A stretch of DNA of 41,417 nt from a virus: positions 1-41,417 of the IMG/VR virus record IMGVR_UViG_3300028678_000007; one strand, written 5' to 3'. The position numbers were made by a program, and so were the translations under genes. The notes below the pieces were generated by a model that was given only the letters and a program-made list of their open reading frames with translations, made no database searches and was not told the origin of the DNA. This document shows, in pieces, positions 25,682-41,027 of the stretch (positions are counted from its first letter, which is position 1; the number at the start of each line of letters is the position of its first letter).

Positions 25682-25902
25682 AATAATTTTACCAGTACGG
25701 CAACGACGCCGATAGCGAAAGCAATCAATGCACCCAGCTTGATAATCAGGCGCTGTTCGAGTTGGATAAGGTCTTGCTTGGTTGCCAGCTCTACTTGTGC
25801 CTCAACGAGACCCCGCACAATAGCCCGCGCCTGCTCGTGCGGGATACCGGAGGTTTTGAGCTCTTCGACCAAGCGGTCAGTATCAAATGTGAGTGTGGTC
25901 AT
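25678..25902 (-). CDS. DUF1640-like coiled-coil membrane protein
   Basis: The ATG at 25902 follows GGAG and overlaps the endonuclease stop as ATGA, giving 74 residues. F-D-T-D-R-L-V-E-E-L-K-T-S-G-I-P-H-E-Q-A-R-A-I-V-R-G-L is the usual N-terminus of DUF1640/CCDC90-type coiled-coil proteins. A Gln/Leu-rich helix and a C-terminal membrane helix (L-G-A-L-I-A-F-A-I-G-V-V-A-V-L-V-K-L-L) follow. Such proteins are common in bacteria and phages; the function is unknown. Confidence 0.7.
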   Translation of the reverse strand: MTTLTFDTDRLVEELKTSGIPHEQARAIVRGLVEAQVELATKQDLIQLEQRLIIKLGALIAFAIGVVAVLVKLL

Positions 25903-27428
25903 ACCACACTCCAAAGCCACTTCTTTTTGCCGCAGTCATAAATACGCCTTGCACCCATTAGGTATGTCATTTCTTTCTCCGTGCGAGTATCCGTTTCCGG
26001 ATTGTAAGTGTCTGTACAGCCATGCTCCAGTAACCGTTTAGGTATGTCTCGGCGTTGGTAGTGCGCTTTGGGGCGAATGCCTATCTTCTGACTCCATACT
26101 TGGTAGTCTACAGTAATTTCATTCTCCAAAACAAACCCCAGTTGCTTATACATCCCACCCCCAAAGTATCGGTTATCTGAAAAGGACTTCACTTCTTTTG
26201 GGTTGTACTCTTGGAGAAATGCCTTAAATAATCGAGATGCTCCTCCTGATACTGTAACCCGCGTTGCATATCGCCCCAGCGTCCAACACCGCCCTTGTGC
26301 CGCTGTACCTCTATCATTTGCCCCAAAAACAAAGCGCATACACGCCACCAGCTTGTCTTTCCAGTACAACCCATAGTGCGCACCTACCCCTGCACCGCCT
26401 TGGATGTGATACTTGTCATAGAACCCCCGCGCTTCCTGAATATCTACTTTGCGTATTTCACATTTCCGCGCCATCAGCTTACCCTTGGACTTCCCAATCG
26501 CATTACGCAACAACCGTTTTACTGCGTAGGGGTGCTCCTTATATTCATTCTCAAAAATAGTTATTAGTCTGATGCCTAAATCCGCACATGCTTGATGTTT
26601 AATGGCGTGCTGGTTTTTATCCCTTTTCTCGGATTCTGCATTACTATGGCTATGATAATAAATGCCACAATATTCAACAGCTAACTTATGCTCGGGAAGG
26701 TATATATCCAGCTCTTTAGGTTTTATAAGCTGTCTGTCACGCCGCTCTACAGAAGTAAATATGGATAGCATATCCCCCAATGCCTCTTCATCCTTGGATT
26801 TCATGTGGTTGCACTGAGGGCACGGGTTTCCCCCATCCAAATGATTGTAGGCTATTTGGGTGAGCTGTCTGTTATGCGGGATGCACCTGAATGTTATGGG
26901 GTTAAGATTGTGTGTGTATACTGTTCCAGTGTAATCAAACACTCCTTTATGCAATAGGGTTGCCCGTGCAACAAACTGTTCTGCTACCGTTTTATTCCTT
27001 CGGGTATTTCGTGCTTGTTGGGGGCCTACAGCACATTTAGGGCAGCCCCGCCCTTTCCTGTGTGAGTGTGTAGTTTGGGGGAACACTCCATGTTCTCTAC
27101 AAATAATATCAACATTGTCATGGGCGTTAGTGTATTTCACCAAAGAGTAATCATACCTATCTCCATGTACTTTCCTAAACTGCATTAGTCTATCTTCTAA
27201 AGAAGGCTTACGCTTTTTAGAAGCTGCATTGGTTGCTTCTCTCCCACACTGGAAACAGCCTTGGCGCTGGGATACATGTGCATTGGGTGACTGAAAAAAC
27301 TCCCCATGAATAGGGCAGATAATTCTTATATATGTCCCGGAATTAATGTAAGGGTCTGGGTAACTATAAGTATCCCCATGTACTGCCCTAGCTTTGGTTA
27401 TAAAATCTTCTGTTGTTAACTTCTTCAT
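25899..27428 (-). CDS. EDxHD-type homing endonuclease with three zinc-ribbon repeats
   Basis: This 509-residue protein starts with three DUF723-like repeats, each of the form F-x-x-K-A-x-x-x-H-G-x-x-Y-x-Y followed by I-x-C-x-x-H-G and a closing C-x-x-C (about 8-63, 80-136, 150-210). The nuclease core E-L-D-I-Y-L-P-E-H-K-L-A-V-E-Y-C-G-I-Y-Y-H-S (243-264) matches the Vsr-like EDxHD family (compare I-Bth0305I). The C-terminal domain has Y-H-I-Q-G-x(4)-G-A-H-Y-G-L-Y-W-K-D-K-L-V. Such free-standing enzymes cut alleles lacking them and spread by repair. It sits just past the capsid gene terminator and has its own promoter. Confidence 0.82.
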   Translation of the reverse strand: MKKLTTEDFITKARAVHGDTYSYPDPYINSGTYIRIICPIHGEFFQSPNAHVSQRQGCFQCGREATNAASKKRKPSLEDRLMQFRKVHGDRYDYSLVKYTNAHDNVDIICREHGVFPQTTHSHRKGRGCPKCAVGPQQARNTRRNKTVAEQFVARATLLHKGVFDYTGTVYTHNLNPITFRCIPHNRQLTQIAYNHLDGGNPCPQCNHMKSKDEEALGDMLSIFTSVERRDRQLIKPKELDIYLPEHKLAVEYCGIYYHSHSNAESEKRDKNQHAIKHQACADLGIRLITIFENEYKEHPYAVKRLLRNAIGKSKGKLMARKCEIRKVDIQEARGFYDKYHIQGGAGVGAHYGLYWKDKLVACMRFVFGANDRGTAAQGRCWTLGRYATRVTVSGGASRLFKAFLQEYNPKEVKSFSDNRYFGGGMYKQLGFVLENEITVDYQVWSQKIGIRPKAHYQRRDIPKRLLEHGCTDTYNPETDTRTEKEMTYLMGARRIYDCGKKKWLWSVV

Positions 27429-27455
27429 TTAGCCCCCTGTGTTGTCCAAGCAGCT

Positions 27456-27483
27456 ATTTTAATACCTATATGGAAAAGGTCAA
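27456..27483 (-). promoter_or_regulatory. Sigma70-like promoter for the endonuclease operon
   Basis: On the minus strand TTGACC (27483-27478), a 16-base spacer and TAAAAT (27461-27456). It lies between the capsid gene terminator and the endonuclease start. Confidence 0.65.
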
Positions 27484-27510
27484 CATCTAAATTGCTAAAT
27501 GGACAGGCGC

Positions 27511-27534
27511 AAAAAAGCCCACCGAAGTGGGCTT
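27511..27534 (-). terminator. Intrinsic terminator after the capsid gene
   Basis: On the minus strand AAGCCCAC-TTCG-GTGGGCTT followed by TTTT. An 8-bp perfect stem with a UUCG tetraloop ends the head operon 30 bases after the capsid gene stop. Confidence 0.9.
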
Positions 27535-27563
27535 AATTTACTTCTTTTAAAACAGAGACTTAA

Positions 27564-28472
27564 CTATGCCCCAGGGCTTGAGAACACCCCTAGCGGATCC
27601 GACCAGCCCACGCTGTATCGTTCACGAGATTTGTAGCGAACGTTGCCCGTGTCGAAGTCACCATCCATTGCAGTGGTCAGTGGCGCTCTAACAAACATTT
27701 TGAGTCCATTAGGCACGTCCGTTGTTAACATCCAAGCATTGGAGTCGGTAAAAAAGTGGTTTATCTTATACCCACCTGGAATTGACCCATTACTCTTCAA
27801 TGCGTTGATATCATTGTCCGCAGTACCCACACGAAGCTCTGTCTCAAGGAGCCTGGTTGCCACAAATTGCAGTGCTGGTGGGATGACTAACTTGACAGGT
27901 TTAGCTGCAATCAGCAACCCGCGTTCATCCGTCCAAGCTGCAATCTGGATGACTGCTGCCTCAAGTGAGGTTTCATTCAAATCCGCTGCTGTCGCCGGTG
28001 TATTGCTGTTATACCCGCCCCCTACCAGAGGATGCAAAGTAGAGAACAGTGGCACACCATCGCCGCCCACAGCCTGTGCTGAGAAGCCATTGTTGATAAT
28101 AGACGCTGCTTTAACCTGCTTGGTGTACGCCATCGCTCTTGCCAGCGCTTTGGTATAACGAGCCGATAGTGCGTCATACAGATTGTCCTCGACAGCTTCT
28201 TCTGTAATTGAGAACCCTAGTGCAATGGTCTCATGATTGTATCTGGCCGTCCAAGCCTCTTGGGCGTTTTCATATTGAATAGCAGCCCCTTCGTTTTTAA
28301 CCGGAGCGGCCTGGAAGCCACTCAATTTTGTTTCTTCTTCAAAAGAACGTTCTGAGCTTTCAATCTCGAAAATCTCTTTATGCTCTTCGCCGTAGCGGGC
28401 ATATTCAAGACCGAACAACGCGTTCAGTCCGGGAAGCAATTCTTTTAATAGTTGTGCGCGTGAAATAGCCAT
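27564..28472 (-). CDS. Major capsid protein
   Basis: This 302-residue protein contains Y-E-N-A-Q-E-A-W-T-A-R-Y-N-H-E-T-I-A-L-G-F-S-I-T-E-E-A-V-E-D in shortened form: the sequence around residues 66-95 with the strongly conserved G-F-x-I-T-E-E-A-x-E-D-N-L-Y (about 86-99). S-A-R-Y-T-K-A-L-A-R-A-M follows. This is the Mu gpT/HK97-fold capsid pattern, with P-L-x-x-x-x-H-P in the middle and R-S-R-E-R-Y-S-V-G-W-S-D-P near the end. It is the last gene before a strong terminator and follows the scaffold and decoration genes. AAAGGAG precedes the ATG. Confidence 0.85.
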   Translation of the reverse strand: MAISRAQLLKELLPGLNALFGLEYARYGEEHKEIFEIESSERSFEEETKLSGFQAAPVKNEGAAIQYENAQEAWTARYNHETIALGFSITEEAVEDNLYDALSARYTKALARAMAYTKQVKAASIINNGFSAQAVGGDGVPLFSTLHPLVGGGYNSNTPATAADLNETSLEAAVIQIAAWTDERGLLIAAKPVKLVIPPALQFVATRLLETELRVGTADNDINALKSNGSIPGGYKINHFFTDSNAWMLTTDVPNGLKMFVRAPLTTAMDGDFDTGNVRYKSRERYSVGWSDPLGVFSSPGA

Positions 28473-28483
28473 GACTAACTCCT

Positions 28484-29308
28484 TTAAGTAATTGCTAAAG
28501 CAGTATAGTAAGCATGGACGCCAAAGTTGAGCTTGACGAGCACTTCCGGATACTGGGTGAAAATGACCGTCGCACCCGAGGCAATAGCTGCCAACGGCGC
28601 TGCATTGACGGTGACCGAGGTTGCACCCGCTGCCGCTGCTACAGAGACGTAAGACCCTGAAGCAATGTACTGGCCATTGGACGCAATCGAGCCTACATCA
28701 GTACCGACAACCAGTGCATTAGGTAATGCAGTCGTCAAGGTAATGGTTGTAGAGCTGGATGAGCCGACCGACGGGGTGACAACCGCAGTCTCAGGCACCA
28801 AACCCACCATACGCGCCGCAGCAGTATTGGTGGTTGTCGTCGCAGACCAGAGTAAAGCCACTTGGGAATTGCCGGTCGCGCCATTGACGGCGTTTTGAAT
28901 CAGACCGTAGTTCTGACCGAGGACAGCTTGGCTGGCAGAGGCCAGTACCGTTGTTGCCGAACAGACGACGGCTTTAAACACCGTGTCGGGGTCATCGCAC
29001 ACATACGCCATGCCGTCACCTGCCAAGGTACTGGCGACCCAATTTTGGGCAAACAGTTTTTGCTTGGTTGCCGGGCTGGTGTAGGTGCAGCCTAAAAATA
29101 CACCGACCAAGCCGACTGCGGTAGAATCCGTAGTGCCGGTGTGTTTGGTAATGTTGCCTCGGGTGATATTGACTAAATCACCGTAGCCTATTGCTGTTGC
29201 GTAGCCATAGCCAATCGGGAGCATACGTGTCGCACCTGCGAACACCTGCCCACCGACCAGATTGACTGGTTTAAGCCCATACGGGCCGTTTACAGTTGGG
29301 TAAGCCAT
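28484..29308 (-). CDS. Capsid decoration/head protein
   Basis: This 274-residue protein begins A-Y-P-T-V-N-G-P-Y-G-L-K-P-V-N-L, then G-G-Q-V-F-A-G-A-T-R, a start seen in many environmental phage head proteins next to the capsid gene. D-L-V-N-I-T-R-G-N-I follows. The C-terminal third (about 175-260) is a Thr/Ser/Ala-rich Ig-like beta region. AGGAGG precedes the ATG. It most likely decorates or stabilises the capsid; the family name is not certain. Confidence 0.6.
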   Translation of the reverse strand: MAYPTVNGPYGLKPVNLVGGQVFAGATRMLPIGYGYATAIGYGDLVNITRGNITKHTGTTDSTAVGLVGVFLGCTYTSPATKQKLFAQNWVASTLAGDGMAYVCDDPDTVFKAVVCSATTVLASASQAVLGQNYGLIQNAVNGATGNSQVALLWSATTTTNTAAARMVGLVPETAVVTPSVGSSSSTTITLTTALPNALVVGTDVGSIASNGQYIASGSYVSVAAAAGATSVTVNAAPLAAIASGATVIFTQYPEVLVKLNFGVHAYYTALAIT

Positions 29309-29329
29309 AATGGCCTCCTATTAATATTT

Positions 29330-29353
29330 ATGCATCCCCTAAGGGCGATGCAT
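29330..29353. repeat. Dispersed palindrome (ATGCATCCCC TA AGGGCGATGCAT)
   Basis: A 24-base inverted repeat with a single internal mismatch, filling the gap between the decoration gene and the preceding head gene. Shares ATCCCCTA-GGGCGAT with the copies at 40923-40942 and, in part, 25157-25170. Confidence 0.65.
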
Positions 29354-29790
29354 TAACCCTTGCCGAAGGACGTGGAACTTTTCTTTTCTCTAAAGATAGG
29401 CATCCGGGCGTCGCTTTGGCGCATCAGGTTATTGTCCACGGCCTCCGTTTGAGCGTGCGTTTGCGCGGTAATATACTCATTACGTTGCTGTACGAACTCA
29501 ATCGGGGTCTTGCAGAGCAGTAACCCACCAATTTCGATGTTGTCCTTGAATCGGCTGTTCGGGTCGACCAATAGTTGCATTTGTGGCTGTTCAATCACCG
29601 GGACGGGTTCCCAGCCTTCTCGTAGTTTTGCGGACAGATTGCGCGGGTCAGTCTGACCTAACGAGGCAATACGAATCCAGCGGTACGCCCAACCGGGGAT
29701 TTCCTCCGGTTTAGGCAATAATTCGGGGGGCATCCACTTCTCGGGGCGTTTGTGGGCGTCGCGTTTTTCCAGTACTCTAGTTTCAGCCAT
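29353..29790 (-). CDS. Conserved head-operon protein
   Basis: This 145-residue protein contains W-M-P-P-E-L-L-P-K-P and the well-spaced G-W-A-Y-R-W-I-R-I-A-S-L-G-Q-T-D-P-R-N (about 33-51). This is followed by R-E-G-W-E-P-V and later I-E-I-G-G-L-L-L-C-K-T-P. This pattern is typical of a small protein located between scaffold and capsid genes in many phages, role unknown. ATG preceded by TAGGAAAC. It overlaps the 102-residue gene by 8 bp. Confidence 0.6.
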   Translation of the reverse strand: MAETRVLEKRDAHKRPEKWMPPELLPKPEEIPGWAYRWIRIASLGQTDPRNLSAKLREGWEPVPVIEQPQMQLLVDPNSRFKDNIEIGGLLLCKTPIEFVQQRNEYITAQTHAQTEAVDNNLMRQSDARMPIFREKKSSTSFGKG

Positions 29791-30091
29791 GGTCGTTTCC
29801 TATTAAATATCTTCCGGAGACGGCGTCGCCGGCAATGCTTACACCCGGTACAAACGTGACTGCTTCAGCTAGTGAGTACGTTAAATCAATATTCTTTTGT
29901 TGTGTAGTTACTTGAATAACACAACCGACACCAGGAATTTCCATAGCTTTTGTACTTTTCATCCAGCCTTCCGTCTGACTCGATGCTTTACAAAGCAACT
30001 GGAACATATCACCATTCCCAAACACTTTGATGTCCGGGACATTGACTTTAGCACCAGCTACGTCGCTGTTATACAGTGTTTTTTCAGACAT
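29783..30091 (-). CDS. Small conserved head-operon protein
   Basis: This 102-residue protein has V-P-D-I-K-V-F-G-N-G-D-M-F-Q-L-L-C-K-A-S and later M-K-S-T-K-A-M-E-I-P-G-V-G-C-V-I-Q-V, the latter a common phage motif in which S-T-K-A-x-E/Q precedes a Q-V-T-T strand. It overlaps the scaffold gene and the 145-residue gene, so it is part of the head morphogenesis set. Function unknown. Confidence 0.6.
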   Translation of the reverse strand: MSEKTLYNSDVAGAKVNVPDIKVFGNGDMFQLLCKASSQTEGWMKSTKAMEIPGVGCVIQVTTQQKNIDLTYSLAEAVTFVPGVSIAGDAVSGRYLIGNDHG

Positions 30092-31046
30092 TAACCTTCT
30101 CCAATTTAATTACTTCCATTGCATACTGCTCCGGGGTTAACCCCAACTTTTTGGCGATTGCCAGCTGTGAGGTCTTCAGGACGACTTTCTTGGAAGACGT
30201 ACTGCGTCTGACGGGAGCGACGACATCCGGTTTGGGTGTGCCCTCGTCAGAGGGTGCACGTACACCGTGCTCAGCCTCCGTAGCGGGCGGTTCAAAAGCC
30301 TCAGGAAACCTCTGTTTGACTTCTTTGGTGATTTCGTCAAAATAGGCTTTGGAGCCGACAAAGTTCTGGCCGCGCGTTTCTGCCAAGTCTTCATGAACGG
30401 CGAGGGCGTACTTGGCCATTTTCTTTTTGGAAGGGTCTACATACCACGGGTTCTCTTTGACCCATTGGGCGACATTTGGGTCGACGGCAGGGGCGGGCTT
30501 GGGAAGCGTATATTCCGATGCTTCTAGCGAAGCGTCGGACATAGTAGGCTTGAAATCCGTGGCTTTGTCAAGCTTGGCATTGGCTTTTATCAGCTCTTGC
30601 TGGGCTTCGACAATCTCATCCGTGGTACCGGCATCATAGGCCTCTTTATAGCGCCGTTTGGCCTTGTCAACCTCAAGCTCTGCCGCCGACTTGTAGGTGG
30701 TTAAGAGCTCTTCTTCACCGGTCTTGAGCAGGGACTTTAAGCGCTTGTTCTCGTCGAGGATTTTTTGAGCGAGGGTCAGGGCTTCGTTCTGCTCACGCTG
30801 CGCCTGCTCTTTTAGGCGCCTTTCATCGTGGTAAACCTTTTTGTACTGTAAAAACTTATTCTTGACCGTTTTACTATATTCTTCCGAGTCCGGCAGCGTC
30901 TCAAGCTCATCGGCGAGGTCTTTCGGTAACGGTTCAATATTGCGGTCAGCGGCGGGGACATCGGACTCTTCTTCTATCTCAATGCCGGCGTCATCGAACT
31001 CACTGTTTAAATCATCATCGTCATCATTTGGGAAACGATATGCCAT
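30084..31046 (-). CDS. Scaffolding protein
   Basis: This 320-residue protein is highly charged. Its N-terminus is acidic (D-D-D-D-D-L-N-S-E-F-D-D, E-I-E-E-E-S-D) and its centre (about 60-165) is a long Glu/Lys/Gln coiled coil. The C-terminal basic helix-turn K-T-S-Q-L-A-I-A-K-K-L-G-L-T-P-E-Q-Y-A-M-E would bind the capsid protein. This layout and the position three genes before the capsid gene fit a P22-like scaffold. It overlaps the Acb2-like gene by one base (TAATG). Confidence 0.75.
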   Translation of the reverse strand: MAYRFPNDDDDDLNSEFDDAGIEIEEESDVPAADRNIEPLPKDLADELETLPDSEEYSKTVKNKFLQYKKVYHDERRLKEQAQREQNEALTLAQKILDENKRLKSLLKTGEEELLTTYKSAAELEVDKAKRRYKEAYDAGTTDEIVEAQQELIKANAKLDKATDFKPTMSDASLEASEYTLPKPAPAVDPNVAQWVKENPWYVDPSKKKMAKYALAVHEDLAETRGQNFVGSKAYFDEITKEVKQRFPEAFEPPATEAEHGVRAPSDEGTPKPDVVAPVRRSTSSKKVVLKTSQLAIAKKLGLTPEQYAMEVIKLEKVNV

Positions 31047-31288
31047 TACAAGTTACTCCTTTCTTCCTGGAGTTGTGCTGACTCTTTGTCTCGCATAATT
31101 TGCTCATCACGAATTGCTTTACCTACCCACATATAACATTCTTCCAAATGAGTAAGCGCCAGCTGCGTTGCGCGCGTATCACCAAAATCTTCAATGGCTT
31201 GCGCTAAACTTTTTACAGACTGTTTTATGTAATCCTGCTTTTCGCAGGCTATGTTGTCATACTTTATGTAATCAAATCTATTAGCCAT
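31046..31288 (-). CDS. Acb2/Tad1-like hairpin-domain protein (candidate anti-CBASS/anti-Thoeris)
   Basis: This 80-residue protein starts at the ATG at 31288, 6 bases after AAGGAG. It is almost all helical and has the signature L-A-L-T-H-L-E-E-C-Y-M-W-V-G-K-A-I-R (43-60) preceded by F-D-Y (5-7), Y10, Y20 and K26. This matches the helical hairpin of Acb2 and its relatives, small phage proteins that bind and sequester cyclic nucleotide signals of CBASS and other defences. A four-gene run of other small proteins lies upstream and the scaffold directly downstream. Family membership is by pattern; ligand and function are inferred. Confidence 0.65.
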   Translation of the reverse strand: MANRFDYIKYDNIACEKQDYIKQSVKSLAQAIEDFGDTRATQLALTHLEECYMWVGKAIRDEQIMRDKESAQLQEERSNL

Positions 31289-31469
31289 TGTCTGCTCCTT
31301 GTTGGGCGGCGAATAGCCTGGAGACGTAATCTTCCTGCTCCGCATAAGGAATTAAACACGTCATTAACTTAATAATATAATCTTCGCTTCCGGTTACGTA
31401 AATTCCACTATTAATCAAACTATCTTTTGCTAAATCAAGTAGTAGCTCTTTTTGCTTCTCAGTTATCAT
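31281..31469 (-). CDS. Small protein upstream of the Acb2-like gene
   Basis: This 62-residue protein is helical, with D-L-A-K-D-S-L-I-N-S-G-I-Y-V-T-G and Y-A-E-Q-E-D-Y-V-S-R-L-F-A-A-Q-Q-G. AAGGA lies 6 bases before the ATG. It overlaps the next gene by 8 bp and the previous by ATGA. No family recognised. Confidence 0.55.
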   Translation of the reverse strand: MITEKQKELLLDLAKDSLINSGIYVTGSEDYIIKLMTCLIPYAEQEDYVSRLFAAQQGADNG

Positions 31470-31609
31470 TTTTTGTCCTTGGTGAGGTGGTGGTCGTGCG
31501 CTATGCGCGCGTTGAGTAGCTTAGTCCGCTGCGTTTGCGTCGCTGCGGCTTGGTAATCTTTTAATAATTTGCGGGACTTGTCGTCCCGCTCGAGTACGGA
31601 CGTAACCAT
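31466..31609 (-). CDS. Very small basic protein
   Basis: This 47-residue peptide has GAGG 8 bases before its ATG (31609) and ends in an ATGA overlap with the 62-residue gene. It is charged and helical: L-E-R-D-D-K-S-R-K-L-L-K-D-Y-Q, then T-Q-R-T-K-L-L-N-A-R-I-A-H-D-H-H. No recognised family. The chain of overlaps supports it. Confidence 0.5.
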   Translation of the reverse strand: MVTSVLERDDKSRKLLKDYQAAATQTQRTKLLNARIAHDHHLTKDKK

Positions 31610-31612
31610 GAT

Positions 31613-31831
31613 TTAATCCTCGAAATCGCCATTTAGTAATTTGAACTTAAATCTTTCTATCATATACAGTAGCTCTTGTTTGCTCGCAGTAGATGCTGCA
31701 AAATAAGCCCCATCATCGTGGCATCGCCCTATAACCAAAACCCTGTGCAACTTATTTTTAGCCCCCTCCAAAACGTTATCGGGACTAATATCCAATCGTG
31801 TATAGCCTCCTATAGGCGTTACCTTGCTCAT
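31613..31831 (-). CDS. Small conserved-type phage protein
   Basis: This 72-residue protein has an alternating strand-helix layout: V-L-V-I-G-R-C-H-D-D-G-A-Y-F-A-A-S-T-A-S, then K-Q-E-L-L-Y-M-I-E-R-F-K. The D-D-G-x-x-x-F-x-A-S-T pattern is seen in many small phage proteins of unknown function. It overlaps the upstream gene as ATGA. Confidence 0.55.
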   Translation of the reverse strand: MSKVTPIGGYTRLDISPDNVLEGAKNKLHRVLVIGRCHDDGAYFAASTASKQELLYMIERFKFKLLNGDFED

Positions 31832-32010
31832 GAAATCTTTTTAGTGCTAAACAAATGCTCCAACCAAGACTCTTTATGCTTGGCTCTAATAGCATCGGCC
31901 AAGTCCGCTTCGTCAGCTTGTTTTTGTAGTTCAATCAATTGCTCTTGCTCGGCGACCGAGTCTAACGAGAATTGGTACAATGCGTCTACTAAATATTTTG
32001 GAATCTCCAT
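31828..32010 (-). CDS. Small helical protein
   Basis: This 60-residue protein is one long acidic helix region (S-L-D-S-V-A-E-Q-E-Q-L-I-E-L-Q-K-Q-A-D-E) and a W-L-E-H-L-F-S tail. GGAG precedes the ATG by 6 bases. A 53-bp gap with nothing recognisable separates it from the GroES-like gene. Unknown function. Confidence 0.5.
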   Translation of the reverse strand: MEIPKYLVDALYQFSLDSVAEQEQLIELQKQADEADLADAIRAKHKESWLEHLFSTKKIS

Positions 32011-32063
32011 TTTATGCTCCTAGGGGTTCGTTACTTAAGACGCTAATCTTAAGGAATGGACAG

Positions 32064-32450
32064 TTAACGGCGTCTAATGCCGCGGGGGTCTTCGGCTGTC
32101 CCGATTACGGAATCATCCGTAATAAGGGCAAACTCTTTGCCGTGTATATTAAGCCGCATCCCGGTGTAGCTGCGGCACAAGATGAAATCACCTTTCTGGC
32201 ACCACGGTCCTGATGGGAACTTAATAGGGTCATTATAGCAGTCAGGACCTAAGTCGACGACGAACAGCACCATGGTGAGTATACTTTCGTTGGCAACGGT
32301 AATGTCCGGCTTAATAAGCTCCGAGTTGTCGAACTTCTCGACGATTTCAGGCACGGCGCACAGGATGTGATAGCCGGTGGGTTTGGGCAGTTGTGATGCT
32401 AGTTTGGCGTGCTCGCTAGTGCTCGTACGCGTTTCTGATAAATCGGTCAC
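32064..32450 (-). CDS. GroES-like co-chaperonin homologue
   Basis: This 128-residue protein has the GroES beta-barrel pattern: K-P-T-G-Y-H-I-L (23-30), then a mobile-loop-like segment, V-V-D-L-G-P-D-C-Y (64-72), F-P-S-G-P-W-C-Q-K-G-D-F-I-L-C (78-92) and E-F-A-L-I-T-D-D-S-V-I-G-T-A (106-119). Phage GroES-like proteins (such as T4 gp31) can pair with host GroEL to fold the capsid protein. It starts at a GTG at 32450 with GAGG upstream and overlaps the 66-residue gene. Identity to true GroES is modest, so the function is probable rather than certain. Confidence 0.7.
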   Translation of the reverse strand: MTDLSETRTSTSEHAKLASQLPKPTGYHILCAVPEIVEKFDNSELIKPDITVANESILTMVLFVVDLGPDCYNDPIKFPSGPWCQKGDFILCRSYTGMRLNIHGKEFALITDDSVIGTAEDPRGIRRR

Positions 32451-32647
32451 TCGTCGTCATCCTCCCCTCGTGCGAGGGTGTTTAGCAGTTGTAAAAGTTG
32501 TTTAAAAGCGTCGATTTTGCCGACAATATGCCGGTACTCTGCCCAATCTGTCGGGGTGCCTTTACTCAAGGTGTCAGTATAGACGGTTATACGTTCTTTG
32601 ACTTGAATCTCGAGTTTGGTCAGGATGCGCAGGGTCTCGTTGTCCAT
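32447..32647 (-). CDS. Small protein downstream of portal
   Basis: This 66-residue helical protein (L-R-I-L-T-K-L-E-I-Q-V-K-E-R-I, then I-D-A-F-K-Q-L-L-Q-L-L-N-T-L-A-R-G-E-D-D-D-E) has GGAG before its ATG and follows the portal. Its stop overlaps the GTG start of the GroES-like gene. Short helical proteins in this place are frequent in portal-downstream operons; no function assigned. Confidence 0.55.
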   Translation of the reverse strand: MDNETLRILTKLEIQVKERITVYTDTLSKGTPTDWAEYRHIVGKIDAFKQLLQLLNTLARGEDDDE

Positions 32648-32662
32648 TAGTTCTCTCCAATA

Positions 32663-35221
32663 TTAGTTACTCTTCTTAGCCGGTGCGGGCCTCTTAGCCG
32701 CCAGCTTGGCTTGTTCAAGCTGCTGCTCCAGGGTCATCTCGTGCTTGGCCATGTCATGGGCTTGGCTGGAATGATGGGTGTGTAAATCAACGGCATGCTT
32801 AGTGTGGCCGTCATGTTTTTTAGCATTTAATTCAAGCTGCTTGATATGGATATTAGCGCCGAGTTGGGCGCCGGCGGTCTCACTTTGGTCTTGCAGCTTG
32901 GCGCCTTGCAGTTGTAAACCCGCTTGTTTAATGGCGATATCGGCGTCGTCCTTTTTAGCCTTGCGTTGTAAATCTTGCGCTTTAAGCTGCAGCTCTTGTT
33001 GCTGGAGCTGAATCACCGGGTCTTGGGATTTGGCGGCGTTCTCTTGCGCCTGCTGCGCTTGTACATTCTGTTGCAATAGCTGTTGACTTGCTTTGGCAGC
33101 CAGCTGAGATACTTGTAGCTCCATTTCCATAGGGATGCCAATCTGCTCATCCTCATCCTCCGGACTGCCGTAAGTGGGAAGGGGCTGGCCCATCGCCTGC
33201 TCAATTTGTTTACGATACTCATAGCCCAGATGCTCGGCAATATGAGCGCTAAGAGCAGCCTCGAGGGCCTGTAGGGCTTGGGGATTGTTGCCATACGCAC
33301 CTTGTAGGACGGACATCACTTTAGGGTCGTGCATGGCCGCCATGTGCACGGTGATATGGGCTTGGTGGTCTTGGTATAAAAACGCTTTGACCGGCTTGCC
33401 TTTGAGGATATCCTGGTTCTCGGTCACCGGGTCACGGGGTTTGGCGTCGCCGGGCATCGGGATAAGCTTCTGGTAGTCTTTAATACCTAGCACCTCTAAC
33501 ATCTGCCGATGTAGTAAAGGCATGTCATACAACTGCGGTGCGCCTTGGGCCAGTTGTAAAACCGCTTGGTACTGTACCACGCGTTGGGCGAGTGTCGCGG
33601 CGTTGGGGTCACTAACCGGGATGACGGCGACTTGCTTATAATCAGAGCGTTTAGCAGAGCGTCCGCCTTCTTCCGGTTCATAAGAGTAAGTCTGCGGCGT
33701 GTAGTCCCTGATGATGTCCCGTAAGAGCTGGAGCTCGCGTTTCATTGAGTAATGGATGCGGGCTTGGATCGCCGACATCATTTTTAAGGTACGTTCAAGT
33801 ACAGCCAGGGTTGTGCCGACGGGCGAGTTGGAGCTCATATCGGACACGGCCAAGTCAGCGCTGCCGGCGAATTTGCGGCCTTCTTCTACTATTGCTTGGA
33901 GCAACTGGAAGAGGGTTTGAGACGGCTCTTTGTAGGGCAGCGGCATGAAATTGTCACGCAAGGTGCCGGATGGCACGTCGACGTCGCGCCACTCACCGGG
34001 GCCTATCGGCGTGTCGTCGCCTTTGACGCGCAGACCATTGGCCTTGAAGCCGCCGGGGAGATTAGACAAGGTACCCGCGTCAACCAACTGGCGGATTAAG
34101 CTGGTGCCGGACTTGGCGAAGGAGCCAATCAAGTTGACTAAGCCTAGGTTGTAAAAGCCAAAGGCCGGGATGTAGCCATAATGGACAAAATGGTTACGGC
34201 GGATTTGCTTTACATCGTCGGGGTCCCAGTTACGTCTAATGGCTAAGATGCTGGTGGTGCCTTTTTCTAGGGTGACGATGTAGGGTAATTCGATGCCGGT
34301 GGCATGGCCTTTGTCGTCTTTATGGGGGAAATCATCTAAATCAAGATTGACCTGCATCTCCAGGAGCTTGAAGCGGTCGTCTTGCGTCGCAGAGAAGCCT
34401 AAGCGCTCGGCAATTTGCTTCTCGATGTCGTCTAAGGTGTTGGACGGCTCGCCGAGCTCGACGTCCCGGTAAAAGCCGGCGTAAATCAATTTATTGACAT
34501 CGTTCTTGGTCTTGCGCATGACATGGGTGATGCGCTCGGAGGACTCCAGGGATGCTGCGCCATAAGGGACGACGACATCATCGGCAGAGACGAACATGGA
34601 GACTTGGCGGCCTAGGCTGGGGTCGAAGTATACCTTCTTGAACGCATTCCCTGCGACCGCTAAACTAAACAACATACGCTCGTGGTCTGGACGCATTTCC
34701 ACCATCTGTTCTGTTAAAGCCCAGTTCATGTCGGACTGTACACGCTCAGCAGCCTCTTTGAGGTCTTGCGTCTCCTTACCGATTATCTTGGTTTTACATG
34801 GGCCCATGGCGGGCCAAGTGGCTGTAATGACCTCACTGGCAAACTTTACACAGGCCTCAGTCAATAGAGGATGTACAATAGCACACGCCCCAGGCCATGG
34901 CTCTGTGCGCTCATCGAGACTTTTAATTCCAAGCAACTCTATCCCGTCCACATAGGTCTGTAGCCAGTCACGACGCGACATTTGGTCTTCATCGTAGTCC
35001 GCAAGCAGCTCACCGGATATCTTAGTTAGCTCCGCTTCGCTTAGTCTATCGGCAAGGTTCTCACCAAACTCGTCATCTTCAGGCTCTGGCATAATGTCTA
35101 TGCCGTTGATGGAGACCGACTCAGGGTCATCAATTTCTATCTGGAGCTCGTCGAAATCTAACGGGGGCTGGAGGGCGCCTAAGCCTGTCGGCGCGGGGTT
35201 CAATGCGGGGGATATGGGCAT
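32663..35221 (-). CDS. Portal protein (P22-like)
   Basis: This 852-residue protein has the core portal pattern W-P-G-A-C-A-I-V-H-P-L-L-T-E-A-C-V-K-F-A (about 107-126), D-V-V-V-P-Y, D-P-D-D-V-K and P-L-P-Y-K-E-P-S-Q-T-L-F-Q-L-L. These belong to portals of podoviruses. The C-terminal 190 residues form a Gln/Ala-rich coiled coil (barrel-like, as in P22). AGGAGATAGCT lies before the ATG. The portal is the DNA gate of the capsid and the terminase docking site. Neighbours (terminase upstream, scaffold and capsid downstream) agree. Confidence 0.87.
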   Translation of the reverse strand: MPISPALNPAPTGLGALQPPLDFDELQIEIDDPESVSINGIDIMPEPEDDEFGENLADRLSEAELTKISGELLADYDEDQMSRRDWLQTYVDGIELLGIKSLDERTEPWPGACAIVHPLLTEACVKFASEVITATWPAMGPCKTKIIGKETQDLKEAAERVQSDMNWALTEQMVEMRPDHERMLFSLAVAGNAFKKVYFDPSLGRQVSMFVSADDVVVPYGAASLESSERITHVMRKTKNDVNKLIYAGFYRDVELGEPSNTLDDIEKQIAERLGFSATQDDRFKLLEMQVNLDLDDFPHKDDKGHATGIELPYIVTLEKGTTSILAIRRNWDPDDVKQIRRNHFVHYGYIPAFGFYNLGLVNLIGSFAKSGTSLIRQLVDAGTLSNLPGGFKANGLRVKGDDTPIGPGEWRDVDVPSGTLRDNFMPLPYKEPSQTLFQLLQAIVEEGRKFAGSADLAVSDMSSNSPVGTTLAVLERTLKMMSAIQARIHYSMKRELQLLRDIIRDYTPQTYSYEPEEGGRSAKRSDYKQVAVIPVSDPNAATLAQRVVQYQAVLQLAQGAPQLYDMPLLHRQMLEVLGIKDYQKLIPMPGDAKPRDPVTENQDILKGKPVKAFLYQDHQAHITVHMAAMHDPKVMSVLQGAYGNNPQALQALEAALSAHIAEHLGYEYRKQIEQAMGQPLPTYGSPEDEDEQIGIPMEMELQVSQLAAKASQQLLQQNVQAQQAQENAAKSQDPVIQLQQQELQLKAQDLQRKAKKDDADIAIKQAGLQLQGAKLQDQSETAGAQLGANIHIKQLELNAKKHDGHTKHAVDLHTHHSSQAHDMAKHEMTLEQQLEQAKLAAKRPAPAKKSN

Positions 35222-35223
35222 AG

Positions 35224-35436
35224 CTATCTCCTAAATGGCAATAGCCCGGGGCCGCCGGGAAAGATGCCGATACAATTGAGTACGGCAATCAGGACTAATA
35301 AGCCAAACAAGAGGCGGATGAGCATGATAACGGGTGGTGGTAGGGGCAAGAACTGTGCCAGCAAGGTCTCGATAATGTACAGTACAATAAGTGCTACGAT
35401 AATCCAGATGATGAGGTAGACCAAACAGCTAAGCAT
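35224..35436 (-). CDS. Two-helix membrane protein between terminase and portal
   Basis: This 70-residue protein has two clear membrane helices: L-S-C-L-V-Y-L-I-I-W-I-I-V-A-L-I-V-L-Y-I and M-L-I-R-L-L-F-G-L-L-V-L-I-A-V-L. They are joined by a P-L-P-P-P turn, and the tail is F-P-G-G-P-G-L-L-P-F-R-R. Similar membrane proteins between terminase and portal occur in many phages and are holin candidates, but no assay or motif proves it. Overlap of 8 bp with the HNH gene. Confidence 0.65.
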   Translation of the reverse strand: MLSCLVYLIIWIIVALIVLYIIETLLAQFLPLPPPVIMLIRLLFGLLVLIAVLNCIGIFPGGPGLLPFRR

Positions 35437-36109
35437 GACGATTTCCTTTAACGAAATTTAACTTGGCAGGGATAATCTGGAGATTGCTTGGAACGTGCAG
35501 TCCGGACACTTTCTTGCCTCGTAGTGGAATGATGTGGTCAACATTGCATTGTACGCCAGTTAGGCGCGTGCGCAACTCTGAAAGTATGTAAATCTCTTCC
35601 ATCATCCATAAGTCTAGTGGGGAAAGCCAAGTGGGGGTACGCTGTGCTTTAGCTATTTCTCGCAAGTTCTTTTTAGCTCTGACCTTACCAGGATTATTTT
35701 GGCGATATGCCCTAGCCGTAGCGGACATACGCGCTCGGTTATTGTCCCTCCATATAGCCGCGAGTTTTGAAATACGCTCAGTATTTGAGTAATACCAATT
35801 CCTACACATCGCTATATACTTTTCCTTATTTGCCTCTCTCCAAGCCTGGCACCGAGCTAACTCCTTTTCGGGGTTTTCTTGTCGCCAGCGTTTATTATTG
35901 GCTAAGTCTATATCCTTCCTTTTTGCGTATTGGGTTTTGCTATATTCTGCTACCTTATCCGGGTTAGCCCTACGCCACGCCAAGCTTCTGGCATATATCT
36001 CTGCTTTATGCTGTTCTCTATATCCTTTAGCCTGAGCAGCCAGCTTCTCTTTATTTGCGTAATAATACGCTCTTTGTTGTGCTTTTCTTTCTTCGTGTGT
36101 CAGTGCCAT
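35429..36109 (-). CDS. HNH endonuclease (paralogue of that at 6182-6967)
   Basis: This 226-residue protein has a repeated helical N-terminus: R-R-A-N-P-D-K, R-Q-E-N-P-E-K, W-R-E-A-N-K-E-K and R-Q-N-N-P-G-K modules recurring at about 17-18 residues. The C-terminal HNH nuclease has V-D191-H192-I-I-P-L and S-N209-L-Q-I-I-P. The last 60 residues match the other HNH protein, which has zinc ribbons instead of the repeats. It sits between the large terminase and the 70-residue membrane gene and looks like a homing insert. AGGAG precedes the ATG. Confidence 0.82.
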   Translation of the reverse strand: MALTHEERKAQQRAYYYANKEKLAAQAKGYREQHKAEIYARSLAWRRANPDKVAEYSKTQYAKRKDIDLANNKRWRQENPEKELARCQAWREANKEKYIAMCRNWYYSNTERISKLAAIWRDNNRARMSATARAYRQNNPGKVRAKKNLREIAKAQRTPTWLSPLDLWMMEEIYILSELRTRLTGVQCNVDHIIPLRGKKVSGLHVPSNLQIIPAKLNFVKGNRHA

Positions 36110-36135
36110 TTTGGGGCTCCTATGTTTGATAGGGG

Positions 36136-37629
36136 TTAATAATACGCAACGCGTTTAGAGCTCTTAAAATACCTTATTTCGTCTTCTAAGTCCATCGTTG
36201 ATTTGATGAATCCACCTGTACGAAAGTAGGCTAACGCCATGGATACGCAGTCAACGAGGTCATCATGGTCTCCCTGAGGGAAACTGGCGACTTCTTCAAT
36301 AACTTCGTCCGCCCAGCGTCGGTTTGGCGCCCATACACGGCCCGAATTGAACAAATCAGTCGTCATAGAGAGCCTTGCGACCTTGTCGCCCGTGACCCGC
36401 GTTGGTGTGAATTCAGAACACGGGATGCCAGCGCTACGGAGCTCATAGATTAATGGCGCTCCCGAAGCTTTCTTCTCTATAATCACCTTATCTGATTGAT
36501 ATTCTTCAACTTTTTCCCTTGCCATCTGTTTTAGGCGGGTAAAAATACACTTTTCACGCACCATGTCCAACATGATAATGTTGGCTTGTGGCAACCCCGC
36601 GTCGTCGTCTTTGTAAAACACACCCCAGGTGATAATCGCTGAATAATCGGCGCGTTGATGCTTCTCGAAAGCGGTATCCATGGTTTGAAGTACAAATTCG
36701 ATGGGCGGAGGGTTATCTGGCTCCCAACGCATCCAATCCGTGCGCTTTACTATCGCAGATTCATCTCCGGTTGGATTCTGCTGATATTGTGCATTCCATT
36801 TTGGCACTGAAATGGCGTTTTTGGTCGCTAAAATCTCAGCCATTGGCCAAAACTGAGGCCAAAGTGGGTTACCCGACGGCAGAATTGCAGGAAAACTGAC
36901 ATGCTTCCAGGTCTCCGTGTCGTTTAAAGCGGCATGGTTGAGGATTTGCGCGGTTAAATCTCGTTTACTCCAGCGGGTCATAACGACAACTATTTTGCCA
37001 CCGGGTTGAAGCCGCTGGCGCGGGCCACTAGTATACCAGTCATAGACCTTGTCGTAGACCTCAGGCGTAGTAATGGCTTGAAGGGATTGCTGCTCATCGT
37101 GGGGATCATCTAACACAATGAGTCCGCCGCCAATCCCGGTACAACTTCCACTCACGCCTATCGCATAGTAACTCCCTCCGAAGTTGGTGTTCCACCGTCC
37201 AGCCGCTTTTGAGTCCGCTTGTAATGCTACGGTCGGGAAAATCTCCCGATACGCATCGGTATCGATCATATTACGAACCCGGCGACCGAAGCCGACCGCC
37301 AACTCAGCGGTGACGGAGCATTGCAGCACCTTATCATCCGGATATTTACCTAAATACCATGCCGGGAGCAGTACACTAGCGAACTCTGACTTGGTTGAGC
37401 GTGGGGGCATATTGATAATCAGCCGATTACTCTCACCTCTGTCGAGCGCTTCAAACTCTGCCGCCATTCTGAAGTGGTGGCGGCCTTCAATAAAGGTGGG
37501 CCACATGTGCTTCACAAACGCCAGGAAAGACTTGCGGCACAGCTCCTGGTGCTTGCGGCGTTTGAGCTCTTGTATTAAAGCCTCGAGGCGCTCACGGTCG
37601 GAGGGGGAGAGGTCAGTCAGAGCAGCCAA
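36136..37629 (-). CDS. terL: Large terminase subunit
   Basis: This 497-residue protein has a Walker A-like N-M-P-P-R-S-T-K-S (73-81) and a Walker B-like G-L-I-V-L-D-D-P-H-D (169-178). The nuclease domain carries D318-T-A-F-E-K-H-Q-R-A-D-Y and a C-terminal D-H-D-D-L-V-D. It is the ATPase and nuclease that fills the head with DNA. It starts at a TTG at 37629, inside the end of the 24-residue membrane ORF and with GGGG upstream; no ATG or GTG fits. The unusual start suggests translational coupling and low or regulated yield. Confidence 0.92.
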   Translation of the reverse strand: MAALTDLSPSDRERLEALIQELKRRKHQELCRKSFLAFVKHMWPTFIEGRHHFRMAAEFEALDRGESNRLIINMPPRSTKSEFASVLLPAWYLGKYPDDKVLQCSVTAELAVGFGRRVRNMIDTDAYREIFPTVALQADSKAAGRWNTNFGGSYYAIGVSGSCTGIGGGLIVLDDPHDEQQSLQAITTPEVYDKVYDWYTSGPRQRLQPGGKIVVVMTRWSKRDLTAQILNHAALNDTETWKHVSFPAILPSGNPLWPQFWPMAEILATKNAISVPKWNAQYQQNPTGDESAIVKRTDWMRWEPDNPPPIEFVLQTMDTAFEKHQRADYSAIITWGVFYKDDDAGLPQANIIMLDMVREKCIFTRLKQMAREKVEEYQSDKVIIEKKASGAPLIYELRSAGIPCSEFTPTRVTGDKVARLSMTTDLFNSGRVWAPNRRWADEVIEEVASFPQGDHDDLVDCVSMALAYFRTGGFIKSTMDLEDEIRYFKSSKRVAYY

Positions 37630-37691
37630 TAGAGTAACCCCATCGCCAGTAGCCAGAGTAAAGCAAACGTTAAGACAATATTAATTAACAT
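37617..37691 (-). CDS. Tiny membrane peptide overlapping terL
   Basis: This 24-residue peptide is almost one membrane helix (L-I-N-I-V-L-T-F-A-L-L-W-L-L-A-M-G-L-L-Y-W-L-L). Its stop lies 12 bases inside the terminase gene, so ribosomes may reinitiate at the TTG there. A weak GGGA lies upstream. Not certain to be a gene; the hydrophobicity and coupling argue for it. Confidence 0.4.
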   Translation of the reverse strand: MLINIVLTFALLWLLAMGLLYWLL

Positions 37692-37693
37692 GC

Positions 37694-37715
37694 ATCCCTC
37701 GCTTCGCTCGGGGAT
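37694..37715. repeat. Imperfect palindrome ATCCCTCG..CTCGGGGAT
   Basis: Inverted repeat of 5-6 pairs with a TCGCTTCGCTCG-like core, between two tiny membrane genes. It is a looser relative of the dispersed palindromes in this window. Confidence 0.4.
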
Positions 37716-37739
37716 GATTCGTGCGGCTGCTGCGCAGTC

Positions 37740-37853
37740 TTATTCATCATCGCTCCACATGTTGATAATGGCAATAAGCCCGGCTATTATAAAGAACACC
37801 AACGCTATCATGTGACCACCAAAGAGCTCGACGACTATCCCCGGGGCGCTCAT
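37740..37853 (-). CDS. Small membrane protein next to small terminase
   Basis: This 37-residue protein has one hydrophobic segment (M-I-A-L-V-F-F-I-I-A-G-L-I-A-I-I-N-M-W) and an acidic tail W-S-D-D-E. Its ATG overlaps the small terminase stop as ATGA. The palindrome at 37694-37715 and a further 20-codon frame lie between it and the 24-residue peptide. Small phage membrane proteins at this site are candidate holins or superinfection proteins; no motif decides. Confidence 0.55.
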   Translation of the reverse strand: MSAPGIVVELFGGHMIALVFFIIAGLIAIINMWSDDE

Positions 37854-38485
37854 CCCTCACCGCGCAGCTCCTCGTCAGTGAGCTCGCCCCTTGCTTCGCG
37901 CTCTAAGGACAACTGGCTCTGGACATCAGACAGCTCGCCCTCTAGTACACCTAAATCATACCCTCTTAGAAGGCGATGCAGCTCTTCTTCGAGGTCGGCG
38001 GTGGGGCGTTGCTCTATTGAGATTTCTATCTTGTTAGCAAACAGCCCGACTTCGGCGACTTTGCCGAGGAGCTCGATGGACTTGAGCTTGACGGAGTCGG
38101 AACTTGCCTTTTCTGCGAGGTCAAAGAGGTTGTACAAGACATAGTTGCGCATCTTGTTGGTGGCGCCGAGCATGGTGTAATCATATTTGGTTAACAGTGC
38201 TTCGAGGTGTAGCGCTGCGCCGGGAGTGCGGGGGGCTTCGGGCGCGTCGGGGTTGCCCATGAAGATAGCCCGGGCTTGGTCCCGGTCGTCCTCGGTTATA
38301 TTAATCGGTAGGCCAAAGGCTTTTAGAAATTCTGCGGTGTTAAAGGCGGCTTTGGCGCGCTGGCGGACGTCTTCCAATTCTTCGGGGCGTCGTGGTTTGG
38401 GCAAGGGATGGTGCCAATCAATCTGGGGGTTTAGTGCGGTGGTCATAGTGGGCGGCGTCTGAGGGTGGCAGTATCCAGATATCAT
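37850..38485 (-). CDS. terS: Small terminase subunit
   Basis: This 211-residue protein has a central L-E-A-L-L-T-K-Y-D-Y-T-M-L-G-A-T-N-K-M-R and a helical V-K-L-K-S-I-E-L-L-G-K-V-A-E-V-G-L-F region (about 135-152), as in small terminases of podovirus relatives. The C-terminus is a charged helix. It recognises the DNA to be packaged and hands it to the large subunit. The ATG at 38485 follows the KilA-N stop by 4 bases; an inner ATG at 38446 is possible. Its position before terL is classic. Confidence 0.75.
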   Translation of the reverse strand: MISGYCHPQTPPTMTTALNPQIDWHHPLPKPRRPEELEDVRQRAKAAFNTAEFLKAFGLPINITEDDRDQARAIFMGNPDAPEAPRTPGAALHLEALLTKYDYTMLGATNKMRNYVLYNLFDLAEKASSDSVKLKSIELLGKVAEVGLFANKIEISIEQRPTADLEEELHRLLRGYDLGVLEGELSDVQSQLSLEREARGELTDEELRGEG

Positions 38486-38489
38486 AGTC

Positions 38490-39137
38490 TTAAGACTTTA
38501 TCTTAGCAATAATCTCTTTGAGGTGCTCCCAGTCTCGAACTAGCCCAAGATTAATAAGCTGGCAGAGCTTCGCCTCCAATTCATAACGCGTGCGTTGGGC
38601 ATGTGCATCAGCCACGGCCTGATTCCAAGTGGCACTTCCACTGTCACTTAGTATTTTACACTTGTCTCTAATCATTATTGCCAACTGGATGTATCTACCT
38701 TTATTGTCTCCACTCGGAGAGGGTATGTGCTCAGCTATTGCCGCGTTAAGCATTTTAAACTCGTCACCCCCCAGTACACGGAACTCCAGCAGTTTCCCTT
38801 CGATAAAAGTCTTATGTACCTTAACATGAAATTCGGGGCTTATTTGTTCAGCTAACAATACAGCTACGGATATGTGTCCATAGTGTCGCACACCTTTACC
38901 TTTACCTATTGTACATAAAAATGCCTCCTTTGGGAGCTCCCAAATACGTGCAGCCGCCTCGACATACTCCTCCAGGTATTTAGAGCTTAAGAACTTGTTT
39001 AGCTGTCGGACGGGCATCCCCTTCTTTAACCGATGAATATTGCCCGCCTCCATCAACGAAACTAAATCGACACCCCACTCAGTGGAAGCGAAAACTATCT
39101 CGCTGTCTACGTCTACTTTTAATATTTGTGGTTTCAT
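38490..39137 (-). CDS. KilA-N domain protein
   Basis: The ATG at 39137 has GGAG upstream and gives 215 residues. Y-L-E-E-Y-V-E-A-A-A-R-I-W is followed by V-R-H-Y-G-H-I-S-V-A-V-L-L-A-E-Q-I-S-P-E-F-H-V-K-V-H (about 83-109, split here), the KilA-N signature of Y-x-x-H/W-x-x-x-A-x-x-L-A-x-x-I-S-P-x-F. KilA-N domains bind DNA and are frequent in phage regulators and toxins. The gene stands right behind the main leftward promoter, where a late regulator would be expected. Confidence 0.75.
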   Translation of the reverse strand: MKPQILKVDVDSEIVFASTEWGVDLVSLMEAGNIHRLKKGMPVRQLNKFLSSKYLEEYVEAAARIWELPKEAFLCTIGKGKGVRHYGHISVAVLLAEQISPEFHVKVHKTFIEGKLLEFRVLGGDEFKMLNAAIAEHIPSPSGDNKGRYIQLAIMIRDKCKILSDSGSATWNQAVADAHAQRTRYELEAKLCQLINLGLVRDWEHLKEIIAKIKS

Positions 39138-39162
39138 AAATTTCTCCGAGTAAAAGGAAAAT

Positions 39163-39191
39163 ATTATAAAGGCGTTCCGGAATAAACGCAA
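39163..39191 (-). promoter_or_regulatory. Main leftward promoter
   Basis: On the minus strand TTGCGT (39191-39186), a 17-base spacer and TATAAT (39168-39163), with an A/T-rich UP-like tract at 39190-39225. A GCGTT/AACGC inverted repeat covers the -35 and spacer and could be an operator. It drives the terminase, portal and capsid operon. Confidence 0.8.
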
Positions 39192-39477
39192 ATTTTTTAT
39201 AAAAAATTATTTTTTAGAAATCTAAATACCTTACAAGGTGTAGGGTCTTTGGGTAGGGAGTGGTCGTCGGGAATCTGAAATGGTATGGAGATATAACGGG
39301 ACTCCTTCGATGGTATTTTGCTTGGGGCGGGGTCGCCAAGTCCATCCCGCTAGTAAAGTCCCACTTTACATCCAGTATGCGAACGTTTTGCGCTTGGTAT
39401 AATCCTTGCTACGTGTGTGCGCTACAATATATCCAGCAATCCAAAGTTATAGCCATTATAACCTTGTAAATAAATAC
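39192..39477. other. Intergenic region between divergent operons
   Basis: About 290 bp with an A/T-rich end near the leftward promoter and a G-rich middle (39240-39350). A 69-codon frame at 39260-39469 has no ribosome site and no family match, so it is not called a gene. An extended -10 (TG-G-TATAAT, TATAAT at 39398-39403) without a clear -35 could start a rightward transcript. Confidence 0.4.
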
Positions 39478-39507
39478 TTGACTAACTACTCCAGAGTATG
39501 AGATAAT
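39478..39507 (+). promoter_or_regulatory. Rightward promoter for the right-end operon
   Basis: TTGACT (39478-39483) and GATAAT (39502-39507) with an 18-base spacer, starting transcription near 39514. Directly downstream lie an 8-bp hairpin CAAGTCAG/CTGACTTG (39515-39539) and a 6-bp hairpin CAAAGT/ACTTTG (39541-39556), which would cap the mRNA 5' end. Confidence 0.6.
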
Positions 39508-39586
39508 ATAGGCTCAAGTCAGAGTTATGAACTGACTTGGCAAAGTTAGAACTTTGAATCAATCACCCTTTTATGGAATCAAGACA

Positions 39587-40582: not shown

Positions 40583-40610
40583 CGCGTTATAACCTATTGG
40601 AGTTTTACAA

Positions 40611-40820
40611 ATGATTGAATTAATACCAGCGTACGGACGTACATATAGTGATACTAACGCCATGCTTAACGCTTGGTTAAATGGCTCTGACTTTAAAGTT
40701 AAGAATGGCGGACCCTATTGTTCGATACGGGACGTGGACCAACTCAAATCAGACGGTTATCAATTGGTCCGCTTGTACCCTAATAGGCTACAAGCGCATT
40801 TTTTAACTAAAGTATTGTAA
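40611..40820 (+). CDS. Small unrecognised protein
   Basis: This 69-residue protein has GGAG 9 bases before its ATG. It has T-Y-S-D-T-N-A-M-L-N-A-W-L-N-G-S-D-F and D-V-D-Q-L-K-S-D-G-Y-Q-L-V-R-L-Y, which reads like a small alpha/beta domain. It follows the 331-residue gene by 28 bp and precedes a terminator. Unknown function. Confidence 0.65.
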   Translation: MIELIPAYGRTYSDTNAMLNAWLNGSDFKVKNGGPYCSIRDVDQLKSDGYQLVRLYPNRLQAHFLTKVL

Positions 40821-40833
40821 ATCAAACTTAACT

Positions 40834-40857
40834 AAGCCCGCGAAAGCGGGCTTTTTT
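40834..40857 (+). terminator. Intrinsic terminator of the right-end operon
   Basis: AAGCCCGC-GAAA-GCGGGCTT with T-run 40852-40857: an 8-bp stem with a GAAA tetraloop. Confidence 0.92.
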
Positions 40858-40889
40858 GTGCCCGAAAGTTTTGCAAAGTGCAGTTTACT

Positions 40890-40922
40890 AACACCTGTTT
40901 CCTAAGGTGACGACAAGGCTAA
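40890..40922. repeat. 33-bp direct repeat, copy 1 (partner 41028-41060)
   Basis: 31 of 33 bases match the partner. The unit runs AACACCTGTTYCCTAAGG, then TGACGACRAGGCTAA. CACCT and AGGTG inside it form a 5-bp inverted repeat. The palindrome at 40923-40942 begins right after this copy. Confidence 0.85.
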
Positions 40923-40942
40923 CCATCCCCTAGGGGCGATGG
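40923..40942. repeat. Dispersed palindrome CCATCCCC TA GGGGCGATGG
   Basis: Inverted repeat with one mismatch. ATCCCCTAGGGGCG is identical to 25157-25170. Confidence 0.6.
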
Positions 40943-41027
40943 ATAATTGTTGCTTATTTGGATACAATGGCCACTTAGCTTTGGTGTAGTTCTAGCGTGG
41001 TGAATACCCCTGATTTGGGGATATTTT

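Follow-up and report, generated by a model that had tools for sequence, protein, structure and literature searches.

An Acb2/Tad1-family hairpin gene at the scaffold start of a viral head operon, a candidate cyclic-oligonucleotide sponge

What is a gene that resembles a phage inhibitor of CBASS doing among the genes for head assembly, directly ahead of the one in the scaffold position? The locus belongs to an uncultivated virus from IMG/VR, and the window, i.e. the whole stretch of DNA analyzed, comprises 41,417 nucleotides. The acb2-like gene occupies positions 31046–31288 on the minus strand, running from an ATG at 31288 to a TAA at 31046 and encoding 80 amino acids; the plus strand of this interval contains stops. 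The start overlaps the 3′ end of a small upstream ORF (c62) by 8 bp and is preceded by an AAGGAG ribosome-binding site at 31295–31300 (minus strand). A 99-residue reading from an ATG at 31345 was dropped, as the ribosome-binding site, the start typical of related proteins (M..RFDYV) and three close relatives described below all favor the ATG at 31288. The identical protein (100%) is found in three further IMG/VR contigs, giving four copies in all, and since these contigs are near-identical to the window (99.99–100% across 5.4–12.2 kb, the same virus) the gene is not an assembly artefact. A promoter and terminator scan revealed nothing near the gene exceeding shuffled sequence, and the sole minus-strand promoter-like site in its vicinity (31402–31374) lies within c62 and is also present in relatives that lack the acb2-like gene.

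A sequence-only reading had assigned the product to the Acb2/Tad1 family on the strength of a helical-hairpin motif, LALTHLEECYMWVGKAIR, which is indeed present at residues 43–60. Profile searches bear out the assignment. The protein matches the Pfam Acb2/Tad1 hairpin family PF24729 with an E-value of 1.2e-9 and 38.6 bits against a curated cut-off of 27, and matches phrog_1454 at 1.3e-8. A profile built from 32 related viral proteins, with the window protein left out, scores it at 106 bits, compared with 14.0 bits for the best of 5,000 shuffles, and all 37 sequences of a broader alignment have Pfam matches to PF24729 alone. When this class profile was compared with the PDB, the best entry was 9ptq, “Acb2 homolog 43” (six chains, 1.4e-6), followed by several Tad1 entries at about 2e-4; profile-profile comparison with the Acb2 proteins of PaMx33 and T4 gave a probability of 80% and an E-value of 1.3e-5 for an ungapped alignment covering only residues 35–60. 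By these matches the 80-residue product is a real, ordinary member of an already known hairpin family. A weak match to the coronavirus NSP4 family PF16348 (E 0.086) was taken as chance. Protein BLAST returned two weak matches in phages and none in plasmids, a genome scan turned up a single weak relative, in an actinobacterial MAG (L138), and positions 26000–41417 of the window have no near DNA match among phage records. A PADLOC run gave no match and an NCBIfam search nothing relevant.

The predicted structure agrees with this placement. AlphaFold2, run on the class alignment as a single chain, yields two long antiparallel helices (residues 12–33 and 39–75), as in the PF24729 family, with a mean pLDDT of 85 and blocks of 96–99 across residues 11–60, so that the proposed helical hairpin is recovered with confidence for the monomer. 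Residues 1–11 are modeled as coil, with a mean pLDDT of 61 over the first ten. In a Foldseek search of the PDB, two T4 Vs.4 (Acb2) chains in complex with cGAMP rank first and second of 135 (probabilities 0.89 and 0.80), the E-values of 0.66 and 0.70 being weak because short hairpins are common. The Acb2 proteins of the Pseudomonas phages PaMx33, PaMx41 and PaP2 (orf24, p26) and T4 Vs.4 are likewise small PF24729 helical-hairpin proteins, yet Acb2 carries a short N-terminal helix ahead of its hairpin (PMC12043709) that is not predicted here. “Acb2 homolog 43”, at 76 amino acids, aligns without gaps across 56 residues and has the same architecture there (FD...R.KS...TKLEEA) but is without the YMWxGKAIRD core of the window protein.

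The relatives of the window protein form a recognizable class. Using a DNA pattern for YMW[IV]GKAI[RS] we gathered 41 stretches, of which 35 to 37 members could be scored for conservation, the columns within YMW..GKAI[RS] being fixed by the search pattern itself. The class consensus reads (M)SRFDYVKYDE.A...Q..FK......E..I...L..GRAKSLALTKLEECYMWIGKAIRDDQIARNGSA.LQEER.N, and the window protein is a typical member of this phrog_1454, RFDYVKYD...YMWIGKAIRDDQ...LQEER type, departing from it in N12 (for E/D), T41 (for K) and H47 (for K). Conservation is high at R4 (34/35), F5 (33/35), D11 (34/35), Q18 (32/35), K22 (33/35), R39 (36/37) and T46 (33/37), and E49 and E50, likewise outside the pattern-fixed columns, are kept in 30 to 37 of 35 to 37 members. 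The residues Y10, Y20 and K26, cited previously as part of the family signature, are all present as letters; Y10 holds up as a conserved position (30/35), whereas Y20 and K26 each occur in a single member of 35. The literature searched contained no experimental data on this class.

To what extent does the class retain the known ligand site? In ungapped alignments R39 matches PaMx33 R67, which we take to be a cyclic-trinucleotide contact in Acb2. T46 aligns with T68 of T4 Acb2 and T74 of PaMx33 Acb2, and a T68M substitution in the T4 protein lowers its binding affinity (PMC12657230). The residue that differs is R60, which aligns with T4 F82, the phenylalanine that base-stacks with bound cyclic dinucleotides (PMC12657218). 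The stacking Phe is thus replaced by Arg, and Arg occupies this position throughout the class, although two of the three bases in that codon, the first and second, were set by the search pattern; the Phe is not strictly defining of Acb2, as the PaMx33 protein has Ala there. At the N terminus, T4 Y8 is required for dinucleotide binding and Y8A abolishes function (PMC12657218). Candidates for an equivalent tyrosine are Y7, kept in 33 of 35 members, and Y10; the Y7/K22 spacing of 15 equals that of PaMx33 Y11/K26, but alignment of the N termini is unreliable and the loop is modeled with low confidence. As aligned, the protein retains the fold together with part of the known site, and the stacking side is different. 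Since T4 F82 is matched by Arg, binding of cGAMP should not be taken for granted and the ligand may differ.

These differences leave some room for a family member that lost cyclic-nucleotide binding or never had it and serves another role, e.g. with another nucleotide or a protein. The class-wide Arg would fit such a protein, as would the N-terminal RFDYVKYD and C-terminal LQEER motifs, which are the class's own and are absent from PaMx33 and T4 Acb2. The conserved R39, T46 and YMW-GK core argue against it, as does the PDB structure of “Acb2 homolog 43”, which belongs to a neighboring branch, and we regard a non-binding protein as quite improbable. Cyclic-nucleotide sequestration appears the likely activity.

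The signal sequestered might still come from a system other than CBASS, as for Tad1 (Thoeris anti-defence 1), with the gcADPR of Thoeris or the cyclic oligoadenylates of type III CRISPR as candidate ligands. The C-terminal hairpin of Tad1 contains the same kind of motif, SRENACALTHVEEALMW, and Tad1 hairpins are among the PDB entries recovered with the class profile. The Tad1 arginines R109 and R113, which we take to be its gcADPR residues, align with A58 and E62 of the window protein, and this would count against a non-CBASS ligand. Tad1 also adds an N-terminal antiparallel β-sheet to its C-terminal hairpin (PMC12043709), whereas the window protein is the hairpin alone, with no strands predicted in its 80 residues. 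Ligand ranges of Acb2 and Tad1 homologs are nevertheless broad and varying (reviews; PMC12043709), and a non-CBASS sponge, while unlikely, carries somewhat more weight with us than a protein with no such ligand. In a separate observation, Curtobacterium phage AddiRose (L005:5935-6999) carries an annotated cyclic-nucleotide sequestering gene (172 amino acids, PF24729) followed by a gene annotated as nicotinate ribosyltransferase, a pair that could possibly combine a signal sponge with NAD metabolism.

The position of the gene can be judged against its lineage. The window encodes, all on the minus strand, a terminase large subunit (36136–37629; phrog_38, 1.7e-100), a portal protein (32663–35221; phrog_1216, 3.5e-21), a GroES-like co-chaperonin (32064–32450; phrog_3188, 5.2e-6), a 320-residue protein in the scaffold position (30084–31046; phrog_28737, 1.2e-15) and a major capsid protein (27564–28472; phrog_371, 4.6e-21; 69% to Planktothrix phage Pag-Yong1). 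Portal and capsid group the virus with Pag-Yong1, phage DSL-LC04, Pelagibacter phages HTVC023P and HTVC027P, Roseobacter phage CRP-901 and Caulobacter phage RW. Genes in this lineage usually run from terminase through portal, small genes, GroES, scaffold and two further genes to capsid, and we infer the 320-residue protein to be the scaffold because its counterpart in relatives sits between GroES and the major capsid gene. All 73 wider relatives in which both genes were located have the scaffold start −3 to 64 bp from the GroES stop. The corresponding gap in the window spans 1,017 bp and holds four ORFs in addition to the acb2-like gene. These are, on the minus strand, c60 (31828–32010, 60 amino acids, 84% identical over its N-terminal part in the close relatives L100–L102), c72 (31613–31831, 72 amino acids, phrog_11040 at 1.4e-15, 93–94% in all three), c47 (31466–31609, 47 amino acids, 80% in all three) and c62 (31281–31469, 62 amino acids, 92% amino acid identity in L101 and L102 and 5′-truncated in L100). 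A PF24729 search of the relatives matched 0 of 50 records, many of them fragments, where the same search matches the window.

The three close relatives (about 75–94% DNA identity over aligned pieces) contain c60-c72-c47-c62, and only the acb2-like gene is precisely missing. Their scaffold ATG is preceded by the same AAGGAGCAGACA as the acb2-like ATG in the window, including the AAGGAG, so that in the window this ribosome-binding site precedes the acb2-like ATG in place of the scaffold ATG, and the last codons of the gene give a new site. Here a second AAGGAG, at 31061–31056 on the minus strand, is followed by a TAATG in which the acb2-like stop and the scaffold start overlap by one base on the same strand; this confirms the overlap with the scaffold start noted before, and the internal AAGGAG is positioned to act for the scaffold gene. 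The acb2-like and scaffold starts have ATGGCnnATAGATT in common, a possible point of recombination. GC content is 38–41% in c60, c72, c62 and the acb2-like gene (39.9%), compared with 51–54% in portal, GroES and scaffold. On this comparison the acb2-like gene is optional cargo, probably a single-gene insertion at the scaffold start codon. As the three relatives are mutually near-identical over the junction (98–99.8%) they count as one event, and on their own they are compatible with a loss on their branch; because the entire cassette is absent from the 73 outgroups, a gain is the more likely event. The 5′ part of c62 is lost in one relative (L100:3690-3840) and kept in L101 and L102, and the cassette between GroES and scaffold is therefore in flux.

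A location between GroES and scaffold, with a one-base overlap with the scaffold gene, would also suit a head-assembly factor, i.e. a scaffold helper or decoration protein that shares the hairpin fold by chance. The gene is, however, missing from the three close relatives and from the 73 with the same head operon, and is therefore optional and not required for head assembly in the lineage. Other members of the class, moreover, have different neighbors. Across a survey of 37 class loci, some adjoin exonuclease (L144), RecT (L148, L158), helicase (L175), DNA methylase (L150, L156) or tail fibre (L152) genes, and on this evidence a head-assembly factor has very little to recommend it. The same survey shows that to call the head-operon placement unusual, as had been done, is too strong, since at least five other unrelated class members adjoin terminase, portal or capsid genes: one overlaps the end of a portal gene (L160), another lies two genes after a portal gene (L168), others two genes after (L155) and two genes before (L166) a capsid gene, and one directly ahead of terminase, portal and scaffold genes (L176). 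Placement in the class is mixed, with the head operon recurrent. It differs from that of acb2 in PaMx41 and PaMx33, which is encoded on the other strand from the structural genes and sits where the gene set containing the replication genes ends. One further class member lies directly upstream of a phage GroEL gene (L177:877-2649; phrog_5725, 5.8e-79), a second association with a chaperonin gene.

The coding stretch for LQEER (31046–31061 in the window; L139–L177) often holds a Shine-Dalgarno-like AGGA or AGGAG, and at many class loci the stop is overlapped by a following start codon, ATG or GTG (as ATGA or TAATG). The LQEER tail may also act as ribosome-binding site for whatever gene follows.

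Other parts of the window contain repeats and endonuclease genes. An 80% identical 189-bp repeat (35454–35641 and 6204–6391) sits in ORFs 35429–36109 (endonuclease VII-like) and 6182–6967, probably paralogs that encode homing-type endonucleases within the late region. A 90% identical 365-bp direct repeat (9108–9472 and 4591–4955) lies between ORFs 9098–9736 and 4584–5216, and a 509-residue HNH/homing endonuclease-type gene (25899–27428; phrog_559, 1.7e-109) is directly downstream of the capsid gene.

Taken as a whole, we consider it probable that the locus is an optional-cargo Acb2/Tad1-family hairpin gene, inserted at the scaffold start, whose product acts as a cyclic-oligonucleotide sponge. 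Known Acb2 is a hexamer, and the window protein would likewise oligomerize, bind cyclic oligonucleotides from host CBASS-like systems and as a sponge keep them from their effectors. The gene takes over the scaffold ribosome-binding site and is tightly coupled to the scaffold gene, and its position suggests that translation of the product alongside the head proteins would give high levels late in infection. A more specific version, rather doubtful but in our view less so than any of the alternatives above, is that the near-invariant R39 and the Arg at the F82 position mark a distinct class of Acb2-family sponges favoring cyclic trinucleotides or another signal. Such sponges would travel as self-contained late-operon cargo, taking over the ribosome-binding site of the displaced gene and supplying a new one in the LQEER tail, and would provide a counter-defence made with the capsid. 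A link between capsid and CBASS has been described in that a missense mutation in the major capsid gene aids CBASS escape of a phage lacking acb2 (PMC10419184). That the gene protects capsid assembly from CBASS, as proposed earlier, is speculative. A sponge is also costly where Panoptes is present (PMC12657218, PMC12657230), a cost that could explain the sister viruses without the gene.

The locus offers a natural pair of related viruses, one carrying and one lacking the candidate sponge gene, in which the flanking genes are conserved, and a class with an altered binding site. If the class binds a different signal, it would indicate which alarm molecules of the host are important to these environmental phages, and if the protein is made late, with the capsid, this bears on when CBASS-type signaling must be blocked.
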